DNA from: a virus
IMG/VR virus record: IMGVR_UViG_3300017779_000191
Span: 1-21,677 of that record
Reading direction: 5' to 3' (one strand)
Length of the DNA: 21,677 nucleotides
The position numbers were made by a program, and so were the translations under genes. Below are positions 8,153 through 21,567 of the stretch, piece by piece; position 1 is the stretch's first letter, and each line of letters begins with the position of its first letter. Below the pieces are notes generated by a model that saw nothing but the letters and a program-made list of their open reading frames with translations, did not search any database and was not told the origin of the DNA.

Positions 8153-8501
8153 TTATGATGATTTGAAGTTTCGGAGACAGTCACTATGTGCTTACTGCCA
8201 TGGTGTCGCGTCTCCGCTACTTTACATTAAAGACGGTAAGCACTTTGGTGCTTGCTCAATGGATCATTTACAAAAAATTGGAGAGGGTGAAAAGATGGAG
8301 GACATCAAAAACTTTGCACAAATTAATCAAGAGGGCCTTAGGTATGCCCTTAGTAATAGCAAAGACAAATATTTAGAGATATCTAAAAAGAACAAGACAT
8401 ATATTTTACACGAATGGGATAGGGAAGACCGCGTAGATTTCATTCACAAGGTAGTAGCCAATTATTTGAACCATGCCAAGGATCAGGCGAGGAGTGGCTG
8501 A
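8130..8501 (+). CDS. Putative zinc-binding small phage protein (123 aa)
   Basis: The frame starts at an ATG 23 bases inside the SSB gene, with no clear ribosome site, so coupling to SSB translation is likely. Near the N-terminus SLCAYCHG (CxxC), then GACSMDHL (C and H about 22 residues later), could form a zinc site. The remainder is helical and charged, ending in HKVVANYLNHAKDQARSG. The family is not recognised. It lies directly upstream of, and overlaps, the primase-helicase gene, whose protein lacks its own zinc finger. An accessory role at the primase is an inference worth testing. Confidence 0.7.
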   Translation: MTKTYLFDYDDLKFRRQSLCAYCHGVASPLLYIKDGKHFGACSMDHLQKIGEGEKMEDIKNFAQINQEGLRYALSNSKDKYLEISKKNKTYILHEWDREDRVDFIHKVVANYLNHAKDQARSG

Positions 8502-10356
8502 TCTTACAGAATATTTTGGTAAAGCTGGTTTAGTAGTAGATAAAAACTTTGCATTTAGTGGAGCTGACAAGTCCCTGAGCGACTTGATTAGCGAGATGCA
8601 AGGCAATGGGTTAGTTGTAGATTTTATTGACACTAGCGGCGAGCTAGTGAGAGTCCCAGTTAGCGCAACTGCATCGAACCGACCAGATAAAACCAATGAG
8701 CGTAGCGGTTGGTATGTCTACAATCAATTAGATGCAGACTTTGTATGTCTGTATGGCAACTGGCGTACATCTTTAGAGCAGAAGTTTACTTCTTATAACA
8801 CCAATGAAATGACGGTAGCGCAAAAACGCGATCTGCAAGTCAAGGTAGAGGAGGCACAACTAAGACGCGAGGAAGCAAAGAAAACCAAGCAAGACGAAGT
8901 TGCTTTGTATGTTAAAGATAAGTATGCCAAGGCTGGCGAGGTTAAGGAGCATAAGTATCTTACAGACAAGAGGGTTGAGAACCATGGTTTAAGGTTAACT
9001 AGCACTAACAATCTCATGATACCCTTACACACTATTATAAAGAGTAGTGATACTGGGTTATTAGTATCAAGAATAAGAAGTTTACAGTACATCTTCCCAG
9101 ACGGATCTAAAAAGTTTGCATCTGGTGGTGAGGTGCGCGGAAATATTTTTTTAATTGGGGTTGAACACCACCTACTGCCAACCCTTGAAACTCTGGTTAT
9201 ATGTGAGGGTTATGCAACTGGAGCTTCCATTTATGAAGCGACAGGATTGCCATGTGCGGTAGTTTTTTCGGCTAATTTTTGTTTGACTGCAACTACGCGG
9301 TTGCGAGCTATTACTAATTCTAAATTTTTACTTGCCCTAGACAATGATACTTCTGGGGTTGGCGAGAAGTGTGCTAACGAGGTTGCAAGTGCGGTTATCA
9401 ATTGCATGGTTAGACTACCAAGCGTGATTGGTGATTTTAACGACCTAGCCAATGCCAAGGGTAAAGATCAGTTAAAACTAGAGCTGTTAGAGTCTAAGTT
9501 TAATATTAGGCAGTATGCAATCCGCAACTTAGTAGAAGAACCAAAGCCGATTGAGTGGTTAGTTGATAGTTTCATACCATTAGGCAAGCCAGGCATCATT
9601 GCCGCAATAGGTGGGGTTGGTAAAAGTTTAAGTATGATACAACTAGCTCTTGGTATTGCTCTTGGTGGTAAATGGTGGGGTAAACCTATTTTACAAAAAG
9701 GCTCTAGCGTTATCTTTGCCGCAGAAGATGATTTAGCAGAGGTACATAGAAGGATTGATGCGCTTGATCCATTAGGTTTACGGTTTCAGTCTGAATATGA
9801 CGTTTATGTCTTTCCGATACCAGAACAAAAAGAGCCAATGATATTGTTAAGGGAAGAAGGCATAACACCCCAAGCCACAGAGTTAGTAGATGAACTTAAA
9901 ACTATACCTAATTTACAGTTAGTGGTATTTGATCCGTTACAAGCATTTACAACTGGTAATATTAGTTCAAGCAATGAAGTGGGCCAGTTGTGGGGCTCTT
10001 ATTGTGCCAACATAAGTGCCAGGTTGGGAGTTAGTTGTATTTCAGTCCACCATTTAAGTAAAAGTGCATTGAGTAATGACTCTGATGATGCGCTCAGTCA
10101 TAGGGCCGAGATAAGAGGCGCATCTTCCTTGGTAGATAGTGTTAGATTTGCCATAGCCATGTGGTTAGCTGATGAGGATACTTGTGAAAAGATATGTATT
10201 CAAGAAGGAGTTGAAATAGACAGAATGTCAGTTGTTAAAGCTGGCTTAGTTAAATCTAATTCTGGTAACGTAGATTATAAAACTAAGACACTTATAAGAC
10301 GTGGCGCAGTTTTAGAAATATTGGATGAAAACAAAAAGTCCTTTAACTGGGACTAG
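8473..10356 (+). CDS. Bifunctional primase-helicase (TOPRIM + RepA-like ATPase)
   Basis: The 627-aa protein would unwind DNA and synthesise primers for phage replication. The N-terminal region (1-230) contains a charged coiled coil (about 113-150). The TOPRIM domain follows, with CEGYATG (E245) and LALDNDTSG (D290, D292). A hexameric RepA/AAA_25-type helicase domain shows Walker A AIGGVGKS (378-385), Walker B LVVFDP (483-488) and the motif SVHHLSK (524-530). No zinc-ribbon cysteines are seen at the N-terminus. I keep the ATG at 8473, but a GTG at 8494 (right behind GAGGA) would shorten the overlap with the previous gene to 8 bases. No DNA polymerase gene is visible in the window. Confidence 0.92.
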   Translation: MPRIRRGVADLTEYFGKAGLVVDKNFAFSGADKSLSDLISEMQGNGLVVDFIDTSGELVRVPVSATASNRPDKTNERSGWYVYNQLDADFVCLYGNWRTSLEQKFTSYNTNEMTVAQKRDLQVKVEEAQLRREEAKKTKQDEVALYVKDKYAKAGEVKEHKYLTDKRVENHGLRLTSTNNLMIPLHTIIKSSDTGLLVSRIRSLQYIFPDGSKKFASGGEVRGNIFLIGVEHHLLPTLETLVICEGYATGASIYEATGLPCAVVFSANFCLTATTRLRAITNSKFLLALDNDTSGVGEKCANEVASAVINCMVRLPSVIGDFNDLANAKGKDQLKLELLESKFNIRQYAIRNLVEEPKPIEWLVDSFIPLGKPGIIAAIGGVGKSLSMIQLALGIALGGKWWGKPILQKGSSVIFAAEDDLAEVHRRIDALDPLGLRFQSEYDVYVFPIPEQKEPMILLREEGITPQATELVDELKTIPNLQLVVFDPLQAFTTGNISSSNEVGQLWGSYCANISARLGVSCISVHHLSKSALSNDSDDALSHRAEIRGASSLVDSVRFAIAMWLADEDTCEKICIQEGVEIDRMSVVKAGLVKSNSGNVDYKTKTLIRRGAVLEILDENKKSFNWD

Positions 10357-10364
10357 GAGAAACC

Positions 10365-10499
10365 ATGAGCAAAGGATCAGACCAACGACCAAAACAAGTA
10401 GACAATAAAACTTTCGAGGATAATTGGAACAAGGTATTTGGTAAAAGAAAAGACAAAAAAGATACCAAAAAGAAGGAAAATAGGAAGAATGAAAGATAA
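10365..10499 (+). CDS. Small basic hypothetical protein (44 aa)
   Basis: AGGAG at 10355-10359 stands 5 bases before this ATG and overlaps the end of the primase-helicase gene, a good sign for a real small gene. The product begins MSKGSDQRPK, has a core FEDNWNKVFGK, and ends in a lysine/arginine-rich tail. The 'N-W-x-x-x-F-G-K' core is reminiscent of small proteins that follow replication genes in marine phages (from memory). It is probably a nucleic-acid-associated peptide. It ends two bases before the iteron cluster, so that cluster is not interrupted by coding sequence. Confidence 0.6.
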   Translation: MSKGSDQRPKQVDNKTFEDNWNKVFGKRKDKKDTKKKENRKNER

Positions 10500-10500
10500 A

Positions 10501-10569
10501 GGCATATATGATTTAAAAACATACCCATATATAATTTAAAAACAAAGGCATATATGATTTAAAAACATA
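10501..10569. repeat. Three 23-bp iterons, replication-origin candidate
   Basis: Three contiguous units of exactly 23 bases start at 10501, 10524 and 10547. Units 1 and 3 are identical (GGCATATATGATTTAAAAAC then ATA/CAT ends), with identity running 27 bases at 10498-10524 and 10544-10570. Unit 2 keeps CATATATaATTTAAAAAC with changes at its first two bases and one internal base. There are no spacers, so this is not CRISPR. The position just after the primase-helicase gene and the AT-rich character suit initiator-binding iterons or a clustered operator. Confidence 0.6.
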
Positions 10570-10578
10570 CATGCCTTT
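10544..10578. other. Inverted repeat embracing the third iteron
   Basis: AAAGGCAT (10544-10551) pairs with ATGCCTTT (10571-10578) around the third iteron, an 8-bp stem with a 19-base loop. No uridine tract follows, so it is not a good terminator. It may be part of the origin or operator structure. Confidence 0.4.
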
Positions 10579-10607
10579 ATATACATCCTACTATACTATT
10601 AAACTAG

Positions 10608-10635
10608 GGAACGGGCATTTGAAATGCCCTGTTCC
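10608..10635. other. Strong hairpin of unknown role
   Basis: GGAACGGGCATTT (10608-10620) and AAATGCCCTGTTCC (10622-10635) are complementary over 13 pairs with one bulged base and a single-base turn, best seen as a cruciform-forming palindrome. No T-run follows on either strand, so an intrinsic terminator is unlikely. It lies between the iterons and the winged-helix gene in 225 bases that otherwise show no gene. Confidence 0.5.
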
Positions 10636-10724
10636 AAACATTAGGAAAGATATAAATTTTTTGACTTAGTTGGGTTGAAAGAGTGGGGAGTAATAACTAC
10701 ATAGTTGGTGAAAAAGGAGGAAGC

Positions 10725-11090
10725 ATGAAACAGTTAAAAGAGCGTATGAGGGTAGTTAGAGATTTAGCTTATGGTAATAGAAGGCAAAGCGGGTTTATAG
10801 CTTTTTGTCAGTCAACACCGATACATTTTTATATAGTCTTAGAAATCGCGATAGCTCAGTTAGAGGGTAATAAAATAAACTTTGAAAGGTTGGTGTATTT
10901 GTTACCTGGTAATCTGGGGAGCAGGTCAACCATTGGTAGTATTTTAGATGATTTTGTTAGACTTGGTTACATGGTTAAAAGCGTGGGAGTGGATAAGAGG
11001 AAGAGAGTTTTTGCGGTTAGCAAAAAGGGACTTGAACTATTAGACGGTTATTTTGAAAAAAGGCAGGTTAGTCTGAGGGAGGTTGCTTAG
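10725..11090 (+). CDS. Winged-helix (MarR-like) DNA-binding protein
   Basis: The 121-aa frame starts at the ATG at 10725, which has AAGGAGG 5 bases ahead; an upstream GTG at 10683 opens the same frame but has no ribosome site. The sequence shows a helical N-terminus, then helix-turn-helix segment NLGSRSTIGSILDDFVRLGY, followed by a beta wing VGVDKRKRVFAVSKKGLELL. The 'V-S-x-K-G-x-E-L' end is typical of MarR-type winged helices. It sits just after the iterons and hairpin, so it may be the protein that binds them, as regulator or replication initiator. No lambda CI-like repressor is present in the window, so this is also a candidate lysogeny regulator. Confidence 0.72.
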   Translation: MKQLKERMRVVRDLAYGNRRQSGFIAFCQSTPIHFYIVLEIAIAQLEGNKINFERLVYLLPGNLGSRSTIGSILDDFVRLGYMVKSVGVDKRKRVFAVSKKGLELLDGYFEKRQVSLREVA

Positions 11091-11519
11091 TTGAATAATG
11101 AGAAGTGGTGGTTAATAACCGATAGCATTGACGAGCCAGAGAGGTCAGGACTCATTAGCTATAGTGTGGCGAATAAATACGACAACTATGCAAAGCTCAA
11201 AAGGGTGGTCTGGAAGTGGTTTAGATCGCACCTAGATAGAAAAGATATTAGTAGTAGGGAGAAAATCATTCTGTGGTGCTTGTGTGAGCGTTACGGGAAG
11301 AGTTTTAGCTCACATGATGCTATTAGCTATTATGGTCAAATGTGTGGACTGAGTAGCGTTACAATGGGCAAAGGGTTTGCGGTATTGATGGATAAAAATA
11401 TTATCTGGTGCGCTAAACAAGATCAACGGATAATGTTGCGCAAGCTAAAGAGTGGGATGCAGCACAAACACTTCTTGCTCGTTGGTTTAGGCGTGATGTT
11501 GGAGAAAGAGGCTAGTTAA
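11091..11519 (+). CDS. HTH-type replication/regulatory protein (142 aa)
   Basis: The gene abuts the previous stop and uses TTG (11091) as its only plausible start, with GGGAGG about 9 bases ahead. The central part SSREKIILWCLCERYGK, then SHDAISYYGQMCGLSSVTMG and KGFAVLMDKNIIWC, has the layout of the winged-helix HTH_36 domain common in phage and plasmid replication proteins. The N-terminus is Trp-rich (EKWWLITD, VVWKWF). It forms a two-gene unit with the winged-helix gene upstream and ends in a bidirectional terminator. Whether it loads the helicase at the iterons or represses transcription cannot be told from sequence. Confidence 0.68.
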   Translation: MNNEKWWLITDSIDEPERSGLISYSVANKYDNYAKLKRVVWKWFRSHLDRKDISSREKIILWCLCERYGKSFSSHDAISYYGQMCGLSSVTMGKGFAVLMDKNIIWCAKQDQRIMLRKLKSGMQHKHFLLVGLGVMLEKEAS

Positions 11520-12766: not shown

Positions 12767-13252
12767 ATGAGTCAAAAAGTAGCTAAAAAGTCGGGTAGAA
12801 AGCCAATAAAGATTGATTTAGAACAAGTTGAGAACCTTGCCAGTCGTGGACTTGGTAACTCTCAGATTGCGCGTGCCTTGGGCGTTTCATGGGATACGAT
12901 AGACCGTAACAGAAAACGCTCTGCGGATTTTGAGGGTGCTTTAAAAAGGGGGAAAGCTCGTGGCTTGGCGCAAGTGACAAACGCTTTGTTTGAGTCGGCC
13001 ACCGAAAAAAACTCGGTTGTTGCCCAGATATTCTATTTAAAGAACCAAGATCCAAAGATATGGAAAGATCGCGTAGAGAATGTTCATGCAACCATAGATT
13101 TAAACCAGGTATTATCTGGCGCTAAGGATCGTATCGGCGACTTATCCGCGACTATAGAAAAGCCGCGCGTTATAAACGCTGTTAAATCAACACATAAAGA
13201 GCAGCGCAACGTGGTAGACAATCAGGTTAACAAAAACAAAGACACTAAATAG
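12767..13252 (+). CDS. terS: Terminase small subunit
   Basis: This 161-aa protein recognises phage DNA for packaging and hands it to the large subunit. An N-terminal homeodomain-like HTH (LASRGLGNSQIARALGVSWDTIDRNRKRS, about 24-52) is followed by a helical oligomerisation region, and then the motif IFYLKNQDPKIWKDR (about 88-102), characteristic of small terminases. The tail is basic and likely disordered. The ribosome site is weak (AAGGAT 14 bases upstream). The large subunit follows 176 bases later, a gap with two competing hairpins and a run of eight C (13323-13330), but no gene. Confidence 0.85.
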   Translation: MSQKVAKKSGRKPIKIDLEQVENLASRGLGNSQIARALGVSWDTIDRNRKRSADFEGALKRGKARGLAQVTNALFESATEKNSVVAQIFYLKNQDPKIWKDRVENVHATIDLNQVLSGAKDRIGDLSATIEKPRVINAVKSTHKEQRNVVDNQVNKNKDTK

Positions 13253-18179: not shown

Positions 18180-18530
18180 ATGGATAGCGTTGTCACATTA
18201 ATCAACGAGGTTGGTTTTCCCATAGCAGCAGCTATAGGACTTGGTTTATTTATCTGGAAACTTATCAATAAAATCATTGACGGCATGGAGACAAAAGTAG
18301 ACGTGCTGGATGAAAAAGTATCAGCGCAAATATCAGAAATAGAAGCAAGGCTAGGTCAAAAACTAGATTCACAACACGGCATTTTGGTAGCTCTTATTGA
18401 CAGAGTGCGTTCTGTAGACAATGAGATAATTAGACAAGACACGCTTTTGAAGACTATACTAGGTGTACCACAACTTATGCACACCGACAGGTTAGCAAAG
18501 GCGGATAGAGATGACCAAAGAAAAGACTAA
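18180..18530 (+). CDS. Membrane-anchored coiled-coil protein, holin-like position
   Basis: One N-terminal transmembrane segment (about 11-30, VGFPIAAAIGLGLFIWKLIN) is followed by a long amphipathic helix or coiled coil (about 33-95, KVDVLDEKVSAQISEIEARL onward) and a charged tail. The architecture, one membrane span plus a helical tail, is shared with small phage membrane proteins often labelled putative holins. No sequence signature proves that. The last 20 bases overlap the CsgF-like gene, tying a membrane protein of lysis type to the curli genes. No clear ribosome site is seen; the gene starts 6 bases after the nuclease stop. Confidence 0.7.
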   Translation: MDSVVTLINEVGFPIAAAIGLGLFIWKLINKIIDGMETKVDVLDEKVSAQISEIEARLGQKLDSQHGILVALIDRVRSVDNEIIRQDTLLKTILGVPQLMHTDRLAKADRDDQRKD

Positions 18531-19050
18531 GAAAAGAGGCAGACCAAGTAAAGCTGATTTAGCACTAAGAGCTGAAGAAGCCGAGAAACAAAAGATAATA
18601 GAAATAGTTTTTGTTATTGGTATAATTTTATTTCTAGGTGTCTTTGTTCAAAACGCCAGAGCAGATCAAATAACCCACAAGTTTAAATCACCATCCTTTA
18701 ATGGTATTAATACCTCTAGCCATTATCTTACTATTGAAAACCAAGAGTTTAACAGACGCCAAACAATTAAGGACGAATTAAAGGCTGCTATAGAAGAAGC
18801 TGAAAGAGACAAAGAGAATTCTACAGTTCAGAGGTTTATTCGAAATTTTGAATCGCGTGTCTATGCAGAACTAAGCCGACAGCTTATTGCCAACCTCTTT
18901 GGTGAAACACCATCTGACTCTGGGGTTATATCTTTGGAAGGGAATACGATAGAATACAGCACAGACGGAGATTTTTTAACACTAAGAATTACGGAAGCAG
19001 ATGGCACAGTCACGGTTATTACAATTCCTATTGGTAGCTTCACTTTCTAG
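18511..19050 (+). CDS. csgF: CsgF-like curli secretion accessory protein with extended N-terminus
   Basis: In curli systems CsgF is exported, caps the CsgG channel and couples secretion to nucleation. Here a 30-residue charged n-region (containing KKRGRPSK, AT-hook-like) precedes a hydrophobic segment (about 31-47) and a signal-peptidase site ARA at 49-51. The mature start ITHKFKSPSFNGI aligns with E. coli CsgF's MTFQFRNPNFGGN, the peptide that inserts into the CsgG barrel. A long charged helix (about 84-130) and a beta-rich head (about 138-177, ...TDGDFLTLRITEADGTVTVI) follow, as in CsgF. The n-region is far longer than usual, so it may stay membrane-anchored. It overlaps csgG by 50 bases. 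Confidence 0.82.
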   Translation: MTKEKTKKRGRPSKADLALRAEEAEKQKIIEIVFVIGIILFLGVFVQNARADQITHKFKSPSFNGINTSSHYLTIENQEFNRRQTIKDELKAAIEEAERDKENSTVQRFIRNFESRVYAELSRQLIANLFGETPSDSGVISLEGNTIEYSTDGDFLTLRITEADGTVTVITIPIGSFTF

Positions 19051-19873
19051 TTGCTCTATTTTTGACCAGTATGCTGATACATACGAACAAAGATTCAAGG
19101 CACATGATGTTGTACGAATAGATGAATTACAATCAAAATATTTACTGGATGTTGAACCTCCAGCAGTTAGTCCCGTTGTCGCTGTTTACCCTTCCGCCTT
19201 TACAGACCAGACAGGTCAAAGAAAAAGTAATAGTGAGTTTGCTTTATTCTCTACAGCCATAACCCAATCACCTAACACGCTATTAATAAGAGCATTGAAG
19301 CATGCGGGCCATGGACAATTTTTTCGCGTAGTAGAAAGGGTTGGTCTTGATAACCTTACCAAAGAACGTCAACTAATTAGATCTGCCAGGGAACAATTTG
19401 CAACGGATGAAGAGAAAAAGAAACAGCTCTCACCTTTGCTCTTTGCTGGTGTCTTGCTAGAAGGAGCTGTCATAAGTTATGATAGTAACTTGACAACTGG
19501 TGGTATTGGCGCTCGTTACCTTGGAATAGGAACTAGCATCCAATACAGAGAAGATAACATTACAGTAAGTTTAAGAATGGTATCTGTGGCAACTGGTGAA
19601 ATACTTATAGAGGTGTTAAGCCAAAAAACCATATTTAGTTATGGTAAGTCAGAAGACGTTTTTAAGTTCATTGAAATGGGAACTGAGTTGGTAGAAATAG
19701 AACTAGGCAACTCGCGGAATGAATCAACAACAATAGCATTAATGAAAGCTATTGAGGGAGCAGTATTAGAACTTATTACTATCGGTTACGATAGAGGATT
19801 TTGGAAACATGCAGAAATACAAATTAAAAAGCCTACTTGCGATGATGATGACTGTCTCGCTATACGCGGCTGA
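19001..19873 (+). CDS. csgG: CsgG-family outer-membrane secretion lipoprotein
   Basis: CsgG forms a nonameric barrel in the outer membrane that exports curli subunits. The lipoprotein signal is MAQSRLLQFLLVASLSSC, with C18 as the lipid anchor. Shared blocks with E. coli CsgG include STAITQSPNTLLIRALK (84-100), ERVGLDNLTKERQLIRSARE (112-131), EGAVISYDSN, GGIGARYLGIGTSIQY (167-182), VSLRMVSVATGEIL (189-202), KTIFSY and DRGFW (264-268). Both membrane hairpin regions are present. The constriction loop differs: the bases before FSTA read SEFAL, not the E. coli PASN. A tail beyond DRGFW (271-290, with C-D-D-D-D-C) is encoded mostly by the overlap with the next gene. The start has only a weak GGAAG. 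It is full length (mature 273 aa). Confidence 0.93.
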   Translation: MAQSRLLQFLLVASLSSCSIFDQYADTYEQRFKAHDVVRIDELQSKYLLDVEPPAVSPVVAVYPSAFTDQTGQRKSNSEFALFSTAITQSPNTLLIRALKHAGHGQFFRVVERVGLDNLTKERQLIRSAREQFATDEEKKKQLSPLLFAGVLLEGAVISYDSNLTTGGIGARYLGIGTSIQYREDNITVSLRMVSVATGEILIEVLSQKTIFSYGKSEDVFKFIEMGTELVEIELGNSRNESTTIALMKAIEGAVLELITIGYDRGFWKHAEIQIKKPTCDDDDCLAIRG

Positions 19874-20540
19874 TAACGAAATATATTTAGACCAAAGCGG
19901 TACTACACTTAATTTAGACATTGAGCAGCTAGGTATCTCTAACATTATTGGTGGACTTAACTCATCGGCAGGAAGCCTTACAGCATTTGACATTGACGGT
20001 ACTAGTATGACTATTGATATTAATATGATTGGTAATACTAACAAGTTTCTTGGTGATATATGGGCAGATAACTTTACTGCTTTATACAATTTTACTGGTA
20101 ATACAAATACGTTTACTATTCAAGTTGACCCTACTAATACTTATGGTGCTGATTCTTCTAATCAAAACATCGCTGTTACTGGTTCAAGCAATACCTTTAC
20201 ACTTAACCAAGGCACAACTGCTTTAGCAGCTACTTTGGATTTAGACTGGATTATCCAGGGTTCTAACAACACGGTTGTATCTAATATTAATATTGATGGT
20301 GCTACAAACTACATGGACATAGACGGTTCAGATAACACAGTTAATTATACTGGTGCAGGTGTCACAGCGTCAGCAGGAGGCTACTTTTGGTTAGATCACA
20401 CAGGTGGACAAAGAACATTCAATATACAACAGTTAAGCACACAAGATAATGACTGGCTTAAAGTTATTAGTATTGGTGGCAATGCTGCTTCCACAGTTTG
20501 TATTATCCAAAACGACCAAGGAACAAGCACTAGCTGCTGA
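19809..20540 (+). CDS. Secreted curlin-like repeat protein, candidate export substrate
   Basis: A clean signal peptide (MQKYKLKSLLAMMMTVSLYA, cut before ADNE) starts a 243-aa protein rich in Asn, Thr, Gly and Ile. The first mature residues, NEIYLDQSG..LNLDIEQLG, match the curlin pattern N-x-I-x-x-x-Q-x-G. G-[NS]-x-N-T turns then recur at about 75, 97, 125, 151 and 173, 22-28 residues apart, near the unit length of CsgA repeats. The C-terminus VCIIQNDQG is again curlin-like. A beta-solenoid amyloid exported by the CsgG next door is the leading idea; the repeats are degenerate, so a non-amyloid adhesin is also possible. It overlaps csgG by 65 bases and the FecR gene by 92. Confidence 0.72.
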   Translation: MQKYKLKSLLAMMMTVSLYAADNEIYLDQSGTTLNLDIEQLGISNIIGGLNSSAGSLTAFDIDGTSMTIDINMIGNTNKFLGDIWADNFTALYNFTGNTNTFTIQVDPTNTYGADSSNQNIAVTGSSNTFTLNQGTTALAATLDLDWIIQGSNNTVVSNINIDGATNYMDIDGSDNTVNYTGAGVTASAGGYFWLDHTGGQRTFNIQQLSTQDNDWLKVISIGGNAASTVCIIQNDQGTSTSC

Positions 20541-21567
20541 TATTGGTGGGATATCTGAACTTAATGGTTCAGCGCAAATTGTAAGAGACAAGCCATTTAT
20601 TGCAGAAGTAGACTTTGCAATCCAAAGCAACGATGAAGCTGTTACCACTAATGGTCGTATGGCTATTACCTTTCTTGATGACTCTACAGTAAAACTAACC
20701 GAACACTCACAACTAACCATAGATGAATACATCTATGATCCAAACCCAAGCAAAGCAAAGATGGCCCTTACCTTTGGACTTGGTACTGCAAGGTTTATTA
20801 CAGGTAATCTTAACCGCATAGACAAACAAAACATATCGCTTAAAACCCCTACAGCTAACATAGCCATAAGAGGTACAGATTTTACAGCCACAGTAGATGA
20901 GCTTGGTAAATCCTTAATAATTTTATTGCCAGATGCTTATGGTTTATCTAGTGGTGAGATAGAAGTAGTAACGGCTATGGGTAGCGTACTGCTTAACAAA
21001 CCATTTCAAGCTACAACAGTCAGCGTCTTTGAGTCTGCTCCTAGTAAACCAGTTATCTTGGATTTAACTTTAGACATTATAGATAACATGCTTATTGTTA
21101 CACCTCCTAAAAGTGAAATGACTCTAACAGAAGAAGTATCACAAAACGCTAAAGCAAACATACTGGATTTTAATGATCTTGATATAGATTATCTTGATGA
21201 AGATTTTTTAGGCGAGGATGAACTAGAGTTTACCGAGCTTGATATTAACTACCTTGATACTAACTTTTTAGAAGACCTGCTTAATGTTTTAGATTCTTTA
21301 GCTATAGGAGAAGATGAGGATGTCTTAGCAGACGCAGGTGGTATTAACTTAACAGGCACTAGAATAGGACAAGATACCGATACACAAATAACTACTTTAG
21401 TCGCAGGAGATGTAATAAGTCTTAGAAGACAAGTCAATGATTCAGTTAGACTAGATCTTAATGGTAATGGCTCTTATACACTTATTATTATTCAAGATGG
21501 TGTATCTAATGTTGTTAAGATTAACGGTGGTGGTGATTCTAATATAACCATAACTCAAAGTGAATAA
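20449..21567 (+). CDS. Secreted FecR-domain protein with acidic repeat and curlin-like tail
   Basis: A signal peptide (MTGLKLLVLVAMLLPQFVLS) precedes a FecR domain (about 38-148: GSAQIVRDKPFIAEVDFAI, TTNGRMAITFLDDSTVKLTE, ISLKTPTANIAIRGTDFTAT), a beta-rich module normally seen in periplasmic signalling and surface proteins. A very acidic stretch contains a 20-residue repeat (DLDIDYLDEDFL at 243-254, ELDINYLDTNFL at 263-274). The end (about 342-371: TLIIIQDGVSNVVKINGG, DSNITITQSE) has curlin-like I-x-Q-x-G and N-x-x-x-I-x-Q spacing. The protein may be a minor curlin/nucleator that docks on the repeat protein; this is inference. The start lies 92 bases inside the preceding gene, because the signal peptide must be encoded there. 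Confidence 0.8.
   Translation: MTGLKLLVLVAMLLPQFVLSKTTKEQALAADIGGISELNGSAQIVRDKPFIAEVDFAIQSNDEAVTTNGRMAITFLDDSTVKLTEHSQLTIDEYIYDPNPSKAKMALTFGLGTARFITGNLNRIDKQNISLKTPTANIAIRGTDFTATVDELGKSLIILLPDAYGLSSGEIEVVTAMGSVLLNKPFQATTVSVFESAPSKPVILDLTLDIIDNMLIVTPPKSEMTLTEEVSQNAKANILDFNDLDIDYLDEDFLGEDELEFTELDINYLDTNFLEDLLNVLDSLAIGEDEDVLADAGGINLTGTRIGQDTDTQITTLVAGDVISLRRQVNDSVRLDLNGNGSYTLIIIQDGVSNVVKINGGGDSNITITQSE

Follow-up and report, generated by a model that had tools for sequence, protein, structure and literature searches.

The segment lying 3′ of the primase-helicase gene in a 21,677-base stretch of phage DNA (a linear virus record, the whole of which is referred to below as the window) is very probably the site at which this phage lineage starts its replication, namely an origin of the iteron type served by a predicted initiator, the small winged-helix protein wh2 encoded shortly downstream. 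The sequence-only reading had described this segment as a replication origin or control element, and the proposal gains support because the layout of the element is kept beside the primase-helicase gene, wh2 is related to initiators, its sequence covaries with that of the repeats, the sites occur nearly nowhere else in the genome, and Pol A and Pol B are lacking. Tandem direct repeats of about 20 bp, an A+T-rich segment and a nearby initiator-like gene, i.e., the attributes of an iteron origin, are found here together, in the following order (coordinates of the window):

8473–10356, plus strand: primase-helicase with TOPRIM and AAA_25 (RepA-type) domains (Pfam AAA_25 2.5e-29, Toprim_3 2.5e-8; PHROG DNA primase 2.5e-39)
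10365–10499, plus strand: open reading frame of a basic 44-aa “KGSD” protein just upstream of the repeats, seen in translation
10494–10513, plus strand: iteron 1, 20 bp, core GGCATA, an extra site compared with three-site relatives
10517–10536, plus strand: iteron 2, core CCCATA, from repeat searches and the register of relatives
10540–10559, plus strand: iteron 3, core GGCATA, from repeat searches and the register of relatives
10563–10582, minus strand: iteron 4, core inverted (CATGCC), from the repeat search and the register of relatives
10585–10607, no strand assigned: ATCC (10585–10588) followed by the A+T-rich segment (10589–10607), a proposed unwinding element
10608–10635, plus strand: hairpin of 12 bp with loop TGA and a bulged T at 10630, a proposed primer or single-strand initiation signal
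10725–11090, plus strand: wh1, a small HTH-like protein (poor model, pLDDT 57.9; weak Penicillinase_R matches, 0.012 at best, for 16 of 23 members)
11091–11519, plus strand: wh2, a 142-aa single winged-helix protein with a TTG start, the proposed initiator; recognition helix at about residues 86–92
12767–13252: terminase small subunit, 2 kb downstream of the element, the terminase large subunit being also downstream

The cluster of iterons noticed from the letters alone is real: Tandem Repeats Finder reports one 23-bp array (10503–10570, 3.0 copies, 84% matches) with a score of 108, which is the sole strong tandem repeat of the window, the runner-up scoring 47. A repeat search likewise returned three direct copies at 23-bp spacing together with an inverted pair (10544–10560 and 10562–10578, 88% complementary). 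Being read in the register of the relatives, the window contains four 20-bp sites spanning 10494–10582 at a pitch of 23 bp, with gaps of 3 bp between them. Thus, from the initial description of three 23-bp iterons without spacers, the pitch is retained, while the unit has to be shortened to 20 bp and the number of copies increased to four; the stem perceived around the third iteron does pair, and is really formed between site 3 and the inverted-core site 4. Inside each of the window’s sites the dyad is weak, covering 3 to 5 of 7 arm positions. The segment at 10589–10607 is 79% A+T, and in 58 relatives the same segment ranges from 0.70 to 0.88 with a median of 0.73. The hairpin, folded as DNA, reaches −11.5 kcal/mol, where shuffled sequences average −3.8 (z −4.8; none of 200 shuffles equal); the palindrome formerly counted as 13 pairs has 12, with the T at 10630 left unpaired. 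A DnaA box (TTWTNCACA) is found nowhere near the element, and only once in the window (at 18475) where 3.8 are expected.

Conservation of this layout, defined as repeats, ATCC, A+T-rich segment, hairpin bearing a single bulged base and an initiator-like gene and called by script, extends to 91 distinct contigs, the window counted and loci of one contig merged, all from a phage group that is uncultured and mostly marine. Scanning IMG/VR with the primase yielded 74 loci, among which the primase end was placeable in 67; the seven left out are those with a primase match ending before residue 600 (L028, L036, L057, L061, L069, L072, and L075), L028 having later entered as L136. The layout is present in 58 of these 67 loci, and the remaining nine run past the end of the contig. 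A second scan of IMG/VR with the wh2 alignment confirmed 352 wh2 relatives, of which 80 were kept, adding 71 further locus ids, some on already known contigs; here 58 of 71 loci have the layout and nine have 119 bases or fewer upstream. Four further loci (L170–L173) are misses of the script, since on visual inspection the layout is there, a mid-stem mismatch or a small internal loop taking the place of the bulge. In all 91 called contigs the hairpin has a single-base bulge, separated from the loop by six to nine pairs; there are 22 distinct stem sequences, and the hairpin score was reached by one of 1800 mononucleotide shuffles made from 18 distinct segments of relatives and the window. The element always lies 3′ of a primase-helicase gene, with wh2 as its constant neighbour. 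In one subclade (L046–L053, L062, and L063), inspected by eye, the A+T-rich segment is itself palindromic, so that another small stem precedes the main hairpin.

The sequence of the repeats, on the contrary, differs completely between subclades, copies within one genome being alike. Conservation of the 23-bp unit in relatives, proposed earlier as a check, therefore holds for architecture and fails for sequence, and since the former is kept while the latter varies, non-conservation of the unit would have misled if taken as refutation. In the main clade the sites lie at −72, −49, and −26 from the ATCC end and are built as 7-6-7 imperfect dyads, whose cores, for example TACGGG or CCCGTA, occur in either orientation; the dyad is clear in many relatives, involving up to 7 of 7 arm positions. 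Cores placed in either orientation within such dyads argue that the sites are recognized as double-stranded DNA. For the window and nine near-complete relatives, each genome’s own sites are located essentially at the element alone, the few others having 4–5 mismatches and falling in or near the control range, and none of these ten genomes has a second cluster of sites. A search of the open-access literature found no published description naming this element.

The protein expected to read these sites is confidently modelled (pLDDT 87.6) and its relatives are akin to initiators. The Pfam family HTH_36 is matched by 33 of 38 wh2 relatives (best 1.5e-10), the PHROG “replication initiation O-like” by 25 of 38 (best 3.7e-7), and PHROGs termed “replication initiation protein” by 26, 24, and 13 of 38 (best 6.8e-9); the window’s own wh2 has no direct Pfam or PHROG match, and RepA_N is not among the 25 Pfam families listed for the 38 members. 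Comparison of folds returns winged helices of a generic kind, among which transcription regulators are numerous, with Foldseek E-values never below 0.07 and tied VIA Z-scores of 7.4 at most. The initiator-like rows of this comparison (RctB domain 1 5ube, 4pt7, 4pql, and ORC) were dropped as being tied with Fur and TFIIE; the “initiator” 4pt7, for instance, matches wh2 with Z 6.0, as do many winged helices. At a threshold of E 1e-5, none of 50,697 phage records in GenBank holds a relative of wh2. As for wh1, it is missing from many relatives, and comparison of L020 with L022 demonstrates an array that is unchanged although wh1 is absent. The “KGSD” frame has no match in Pfam and PHROG searches, and judged by eye it is not present in all relatives either, being missing, e.g., from L046, L047, and L063.

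The repeats appear to change together with wh2 and not with wh1 or the primase, which makes wh2 their predicted reader. Over 465 pairs of relatives, which are not independent of each other, Spearman correlation of iteron identity with the identity of wh2, wh1, and primase is 0.77, 0.66, and 0.56, respectively, and the corresponding partial correlations are 0.57, 0.20, and −0.26. Because of this non-independence the weight is carried by natural swaps. The near-identical L017 and L018 (primase 99.2%, wh1 100%) have iterons only 63% identical, and their wh2 proteins have five differences (V59L, N89H, K91H, D104N, and R122A), three of which fall at DNA-reading positions, two of them (N89H and K91H) within the recognition helix and one (R122A) in the wing. 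L012 is distinguished from L017 by these three DNA-reading differences again, accompanied by just one more. Between L037 and L074, wh1 is 97.5% identical, wh2 is 49.6% identical, and the repeats differ; L074 and L031, conversely, have identical wh2 and share the repeat unit, the script identity of 67.6% reflecting the fewer copies in L074. Thus, from the two winged-helix genes formerly nominated as encoding binders, covariation favors the second (11091–11519) as the likely one, while the sequence of the first (10725–11090) does not track the iterons.

Correspondence between protein and DNA was followed further by typing within one clade, with six untypable contigs and one outside the classes (VSRQTV) left out. 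The type of recognition helix matches the type of arm in 51 of 53 typed contigs: HRHT occurs with GTAYA arms (18/19), NRHT with GGMTA arms (16/16), and NRKT with GGGTA or GACCA arms (17/18). The wing residue has its own counterpart, since 29 of 30 contigs with Ala have one or more TCG arms and 22 of 23 with Arg have none. Both exceptions, L116 and L148, come from metagenome 3300046167 and have opposite helix-arm mismatches; their explanation as a single cross-assembled pair is unsupported, the longest run common to both from array to wh2 being 42 bases. They are either recombinants or assembly artefacts, and they count against a strict helix-arm code.

Neither Pol A nor Pol B was found in any of 16 contigs, in agreement with the earlier remark that no DNA polymerase is seen. 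The AAA_25 family of the helicase includes RepA of RSF1010. According to domain and PHROG matches, an integrase, an exonuclease, and a Sak4-like annealing protein are encoded upstream of the primase-helicase in the window. When 84,980 species genomes were scanned for a host or prophage by means of the primase alignment, seven distant helicase matches (25–35%) and nothing closer came out, so that neither prophage nor host is assigned. GC skew, another check suggested at the outset, was followed in nine near-complete relatives (e.g., G001 and G004), where it rises toward the element and drops just after wh2; the sign of this break is that of a cumulative maximum, which is wrong for a plain bidirectional origin, and at four-fold degenerate sites of near-complete relatives there is no break at the element. 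The skew therefore reflects coding content more than replication strand and was rejected as evidence for an origin.

Three to four spaced dyads may also be thought of as an operator or immunity control region similar to lambda OR, where wh2 or another phage protein would be a repressor or regulator and specificity would diverge by immunity selection. With a 23-bp pitch and the gene of the predicted binder next to them, three dyads do resemble an operator set, the fold of wh2 is a generic winged helix, and an integrase is present in 14 of 16 contigs, and a CI-like HTH_3 protein reaches the cut-off in 0 of 16. An operator nevertheless appears improbable, given that it leaves the constant A+T-rich segment and the bulged hairpin without a role, that the element always follows the primase-helicase gene, and that among PHROGs the relatives of wh2 match initiators rather than repressors. 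Lambda has two operator regions, whereas here the sites are confined to one place per genome; moreover, a sigma-70 promoter-like site, the one promoter type covered by the model used, is not found within 10300–11100. Repeats can serve as terminase sites in other phages, and proximity of the terminase small subunit gene brings to mind a packaging site (cos or pac) with the repeats bound by terminase; this we consider highly improbable, the repeats covarying with wh2, which rather than terminase is the constant neighbour, and the position after the primase-helicase gene being against such a function.

The hairpin might in principle be unrelated to the repeats and represent an RNA structure or a transcription terminator ending the early operon. 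Its stable GC-rich stem, occurring in 22 distinct sequences just past the replication operon, would suit this role. Covariation in the stem does not separate an RNA role from a DNA role. A terminator is nonetheless rather unlikely: no T-run is present 3′ of the hairpin, it is not called as a terminator, and the one-base bulge that is kept is not a terminator feature. In addition, Rfam models give eight matches with E from 0.17 to 4, all on the minus strand and all below the gathering score.

For an iteron origin read by wh2, we infer the following course of events. Dimers of wh2 would bind the 20-bp sites, which are imperfect dyads around a 6-bp core and which, spaced by 23 bp, would all look toward nearly the same side of the helix. 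The resulting nucleoprotein would open the A+T-rich segment adjoining ATCC, and the phage AAA_25 helicase with its TOPRIM primase would be loaded onto the opened strand; known relatives of this helicase are hexameric. The bulged hairpin, being exposed in single-stranded form, would most likely be a signal for primer synthesis or for helicase placement, its assignment to priming in particular standing close to, and just short of, an even chance. Elongation would be carried out by host DNA polymerase III. It is possible that the initiator plays a double role and also controls its own operon.

Several known systems have part of this arrangement. In lambda, dimers of O bind tandem iterons, imperfect inverted repeats of about 19 bp, beside an A+T-rich tract (PMC7466680). 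Dyadic iterons of about 20 bp (clear in the main clade and weak in the window), the adjoining A+T-rich tract, and the matches of wh2 relatives to O-like initiators in PHROG are similar to the lambdoid origin. Unlike lambda, whose origin is inside the O gene, the element is positioned between genes, upstream of wh1 and wh2; wh2 has 142 aa and a single winged-helix domain, whereas O has a second domain recruiting the helicase loader; and the phage considered here possesses its own primase-helicase and a hairpin kept after the A+T-rich tract. At oriV of RSF1010 (IncQ), RepC reads the iterons, RepA unwinds, the primase RepB′ reads the stem-loops ssiA and ssiB, and host proteins extend the primers (PMC4234260). 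Iterons with a separate predicted initiator, a RepA-type helicase (AAA_25), and a short stem-loop are the shared attributes. The differences are that the primase is of the TOPRIM type (Toprim_3) and fused to the helicase, unlike the archaeo-eukaryotic RepB′, that one hairpin is seen instead of two, and that the order of parts is changed; the initiators are likened by predicted role. Since the defining features of lambda (position and size of O) and of RSF1010 (type of primase) are absent, the element is classed as a variant of iteron origins and as a member of neither system.

Covariation has a counterpart in the PLE satellite of Vibrio cholerae, where there are three semi-palindromic iterons and the DNA-binding domain of the RepA_N initiator covaries with the origin, both functioning only as matched pairs (PMC8263062). 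Three semi-palindromic iterons (in relatives) and the change of initiator and origin in step are common to both; the sites of 20 bp and the one-domain wh2 differ from the iterons of about 30 bp, the two-domain RepA_N initiator, and the dependence on phage ICP1 described for PLE in the same paper. A stem-loop 3′ of the primase-helicase gene is also comparable with the origin stem-loop located just downstream of this gene in plasmid pRN1 and phage BIP-1 (PMC4234260), which deviate by an archaeo-eukaryotic primase, a stem-loop of 100 nt, and the lack of iterons.

Putting these elements together leads to a tentative picture, which we would hold with less than even confidence, of a compact self-contained module: a one-domain wh2 of 142 residues would read the 20-bp dyadic iterons, residues 89, 91, and 122 (L017 numbering) would set the iteron sequence, the bulged hairpin would prime the TOPRIM primase fused to the RepA-type helicase, and the pair of initiator and origin would repeatedly switch specificity in a nearly unchanged phage backbone. 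By analogy with PLE and ICP1, such switching is perhaps driven by satellites or by origin-directed defences. The relatives form a large natural series in which initiator and origin vary together and the remainder is almost constant, and this series yields a residue-to-base hypothesis for initiator specificity. If true, an uncultured phage group having no wh2 relative among GenBank phages would obtain a defined pair of origin and initiator, with the bulged hairpin as a concrete candidate for the start signal of a TOPRIM primase.

More distant phages, cultured and having a related primase-helicase, were inspected by eye. Clustered short repeats lie downstream of the distantly related primase-helicase gene in phages of Alteromonas, Salicola, Idiomarinaceae, and Rhizobium (L174:4380–4590, L175:4350–4475, L176:4510–4725, and L178:3665–3860), in most cases with a GC-rich hairpin; the feature tables mark none of these four regions as an origin. 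Within the group itself, DNA-modification genes have a hotspot of insertion in the gap that separates the origin from the primase-helicase gene, namely Mom-like ones and cytosine-5, Dam-type, and N6/N4 methyltransferases (L029:1364–1855, L018:2985–4118, L005:1968–2387, L064:4027–5019, L066:6654–7952, L068:7861–8616, and L031:9364–10221). L029, which is near-identical to the window’s phage (99.5% in the primase), has the Mom-like gene that the window is without. At the other end of the window (19001–21567), CsgG (1.7e-47) and FecR (2.5e-9) proteins are encoded around a repeat-bearing, secreted-looking protein, forming a curli-export-like set.
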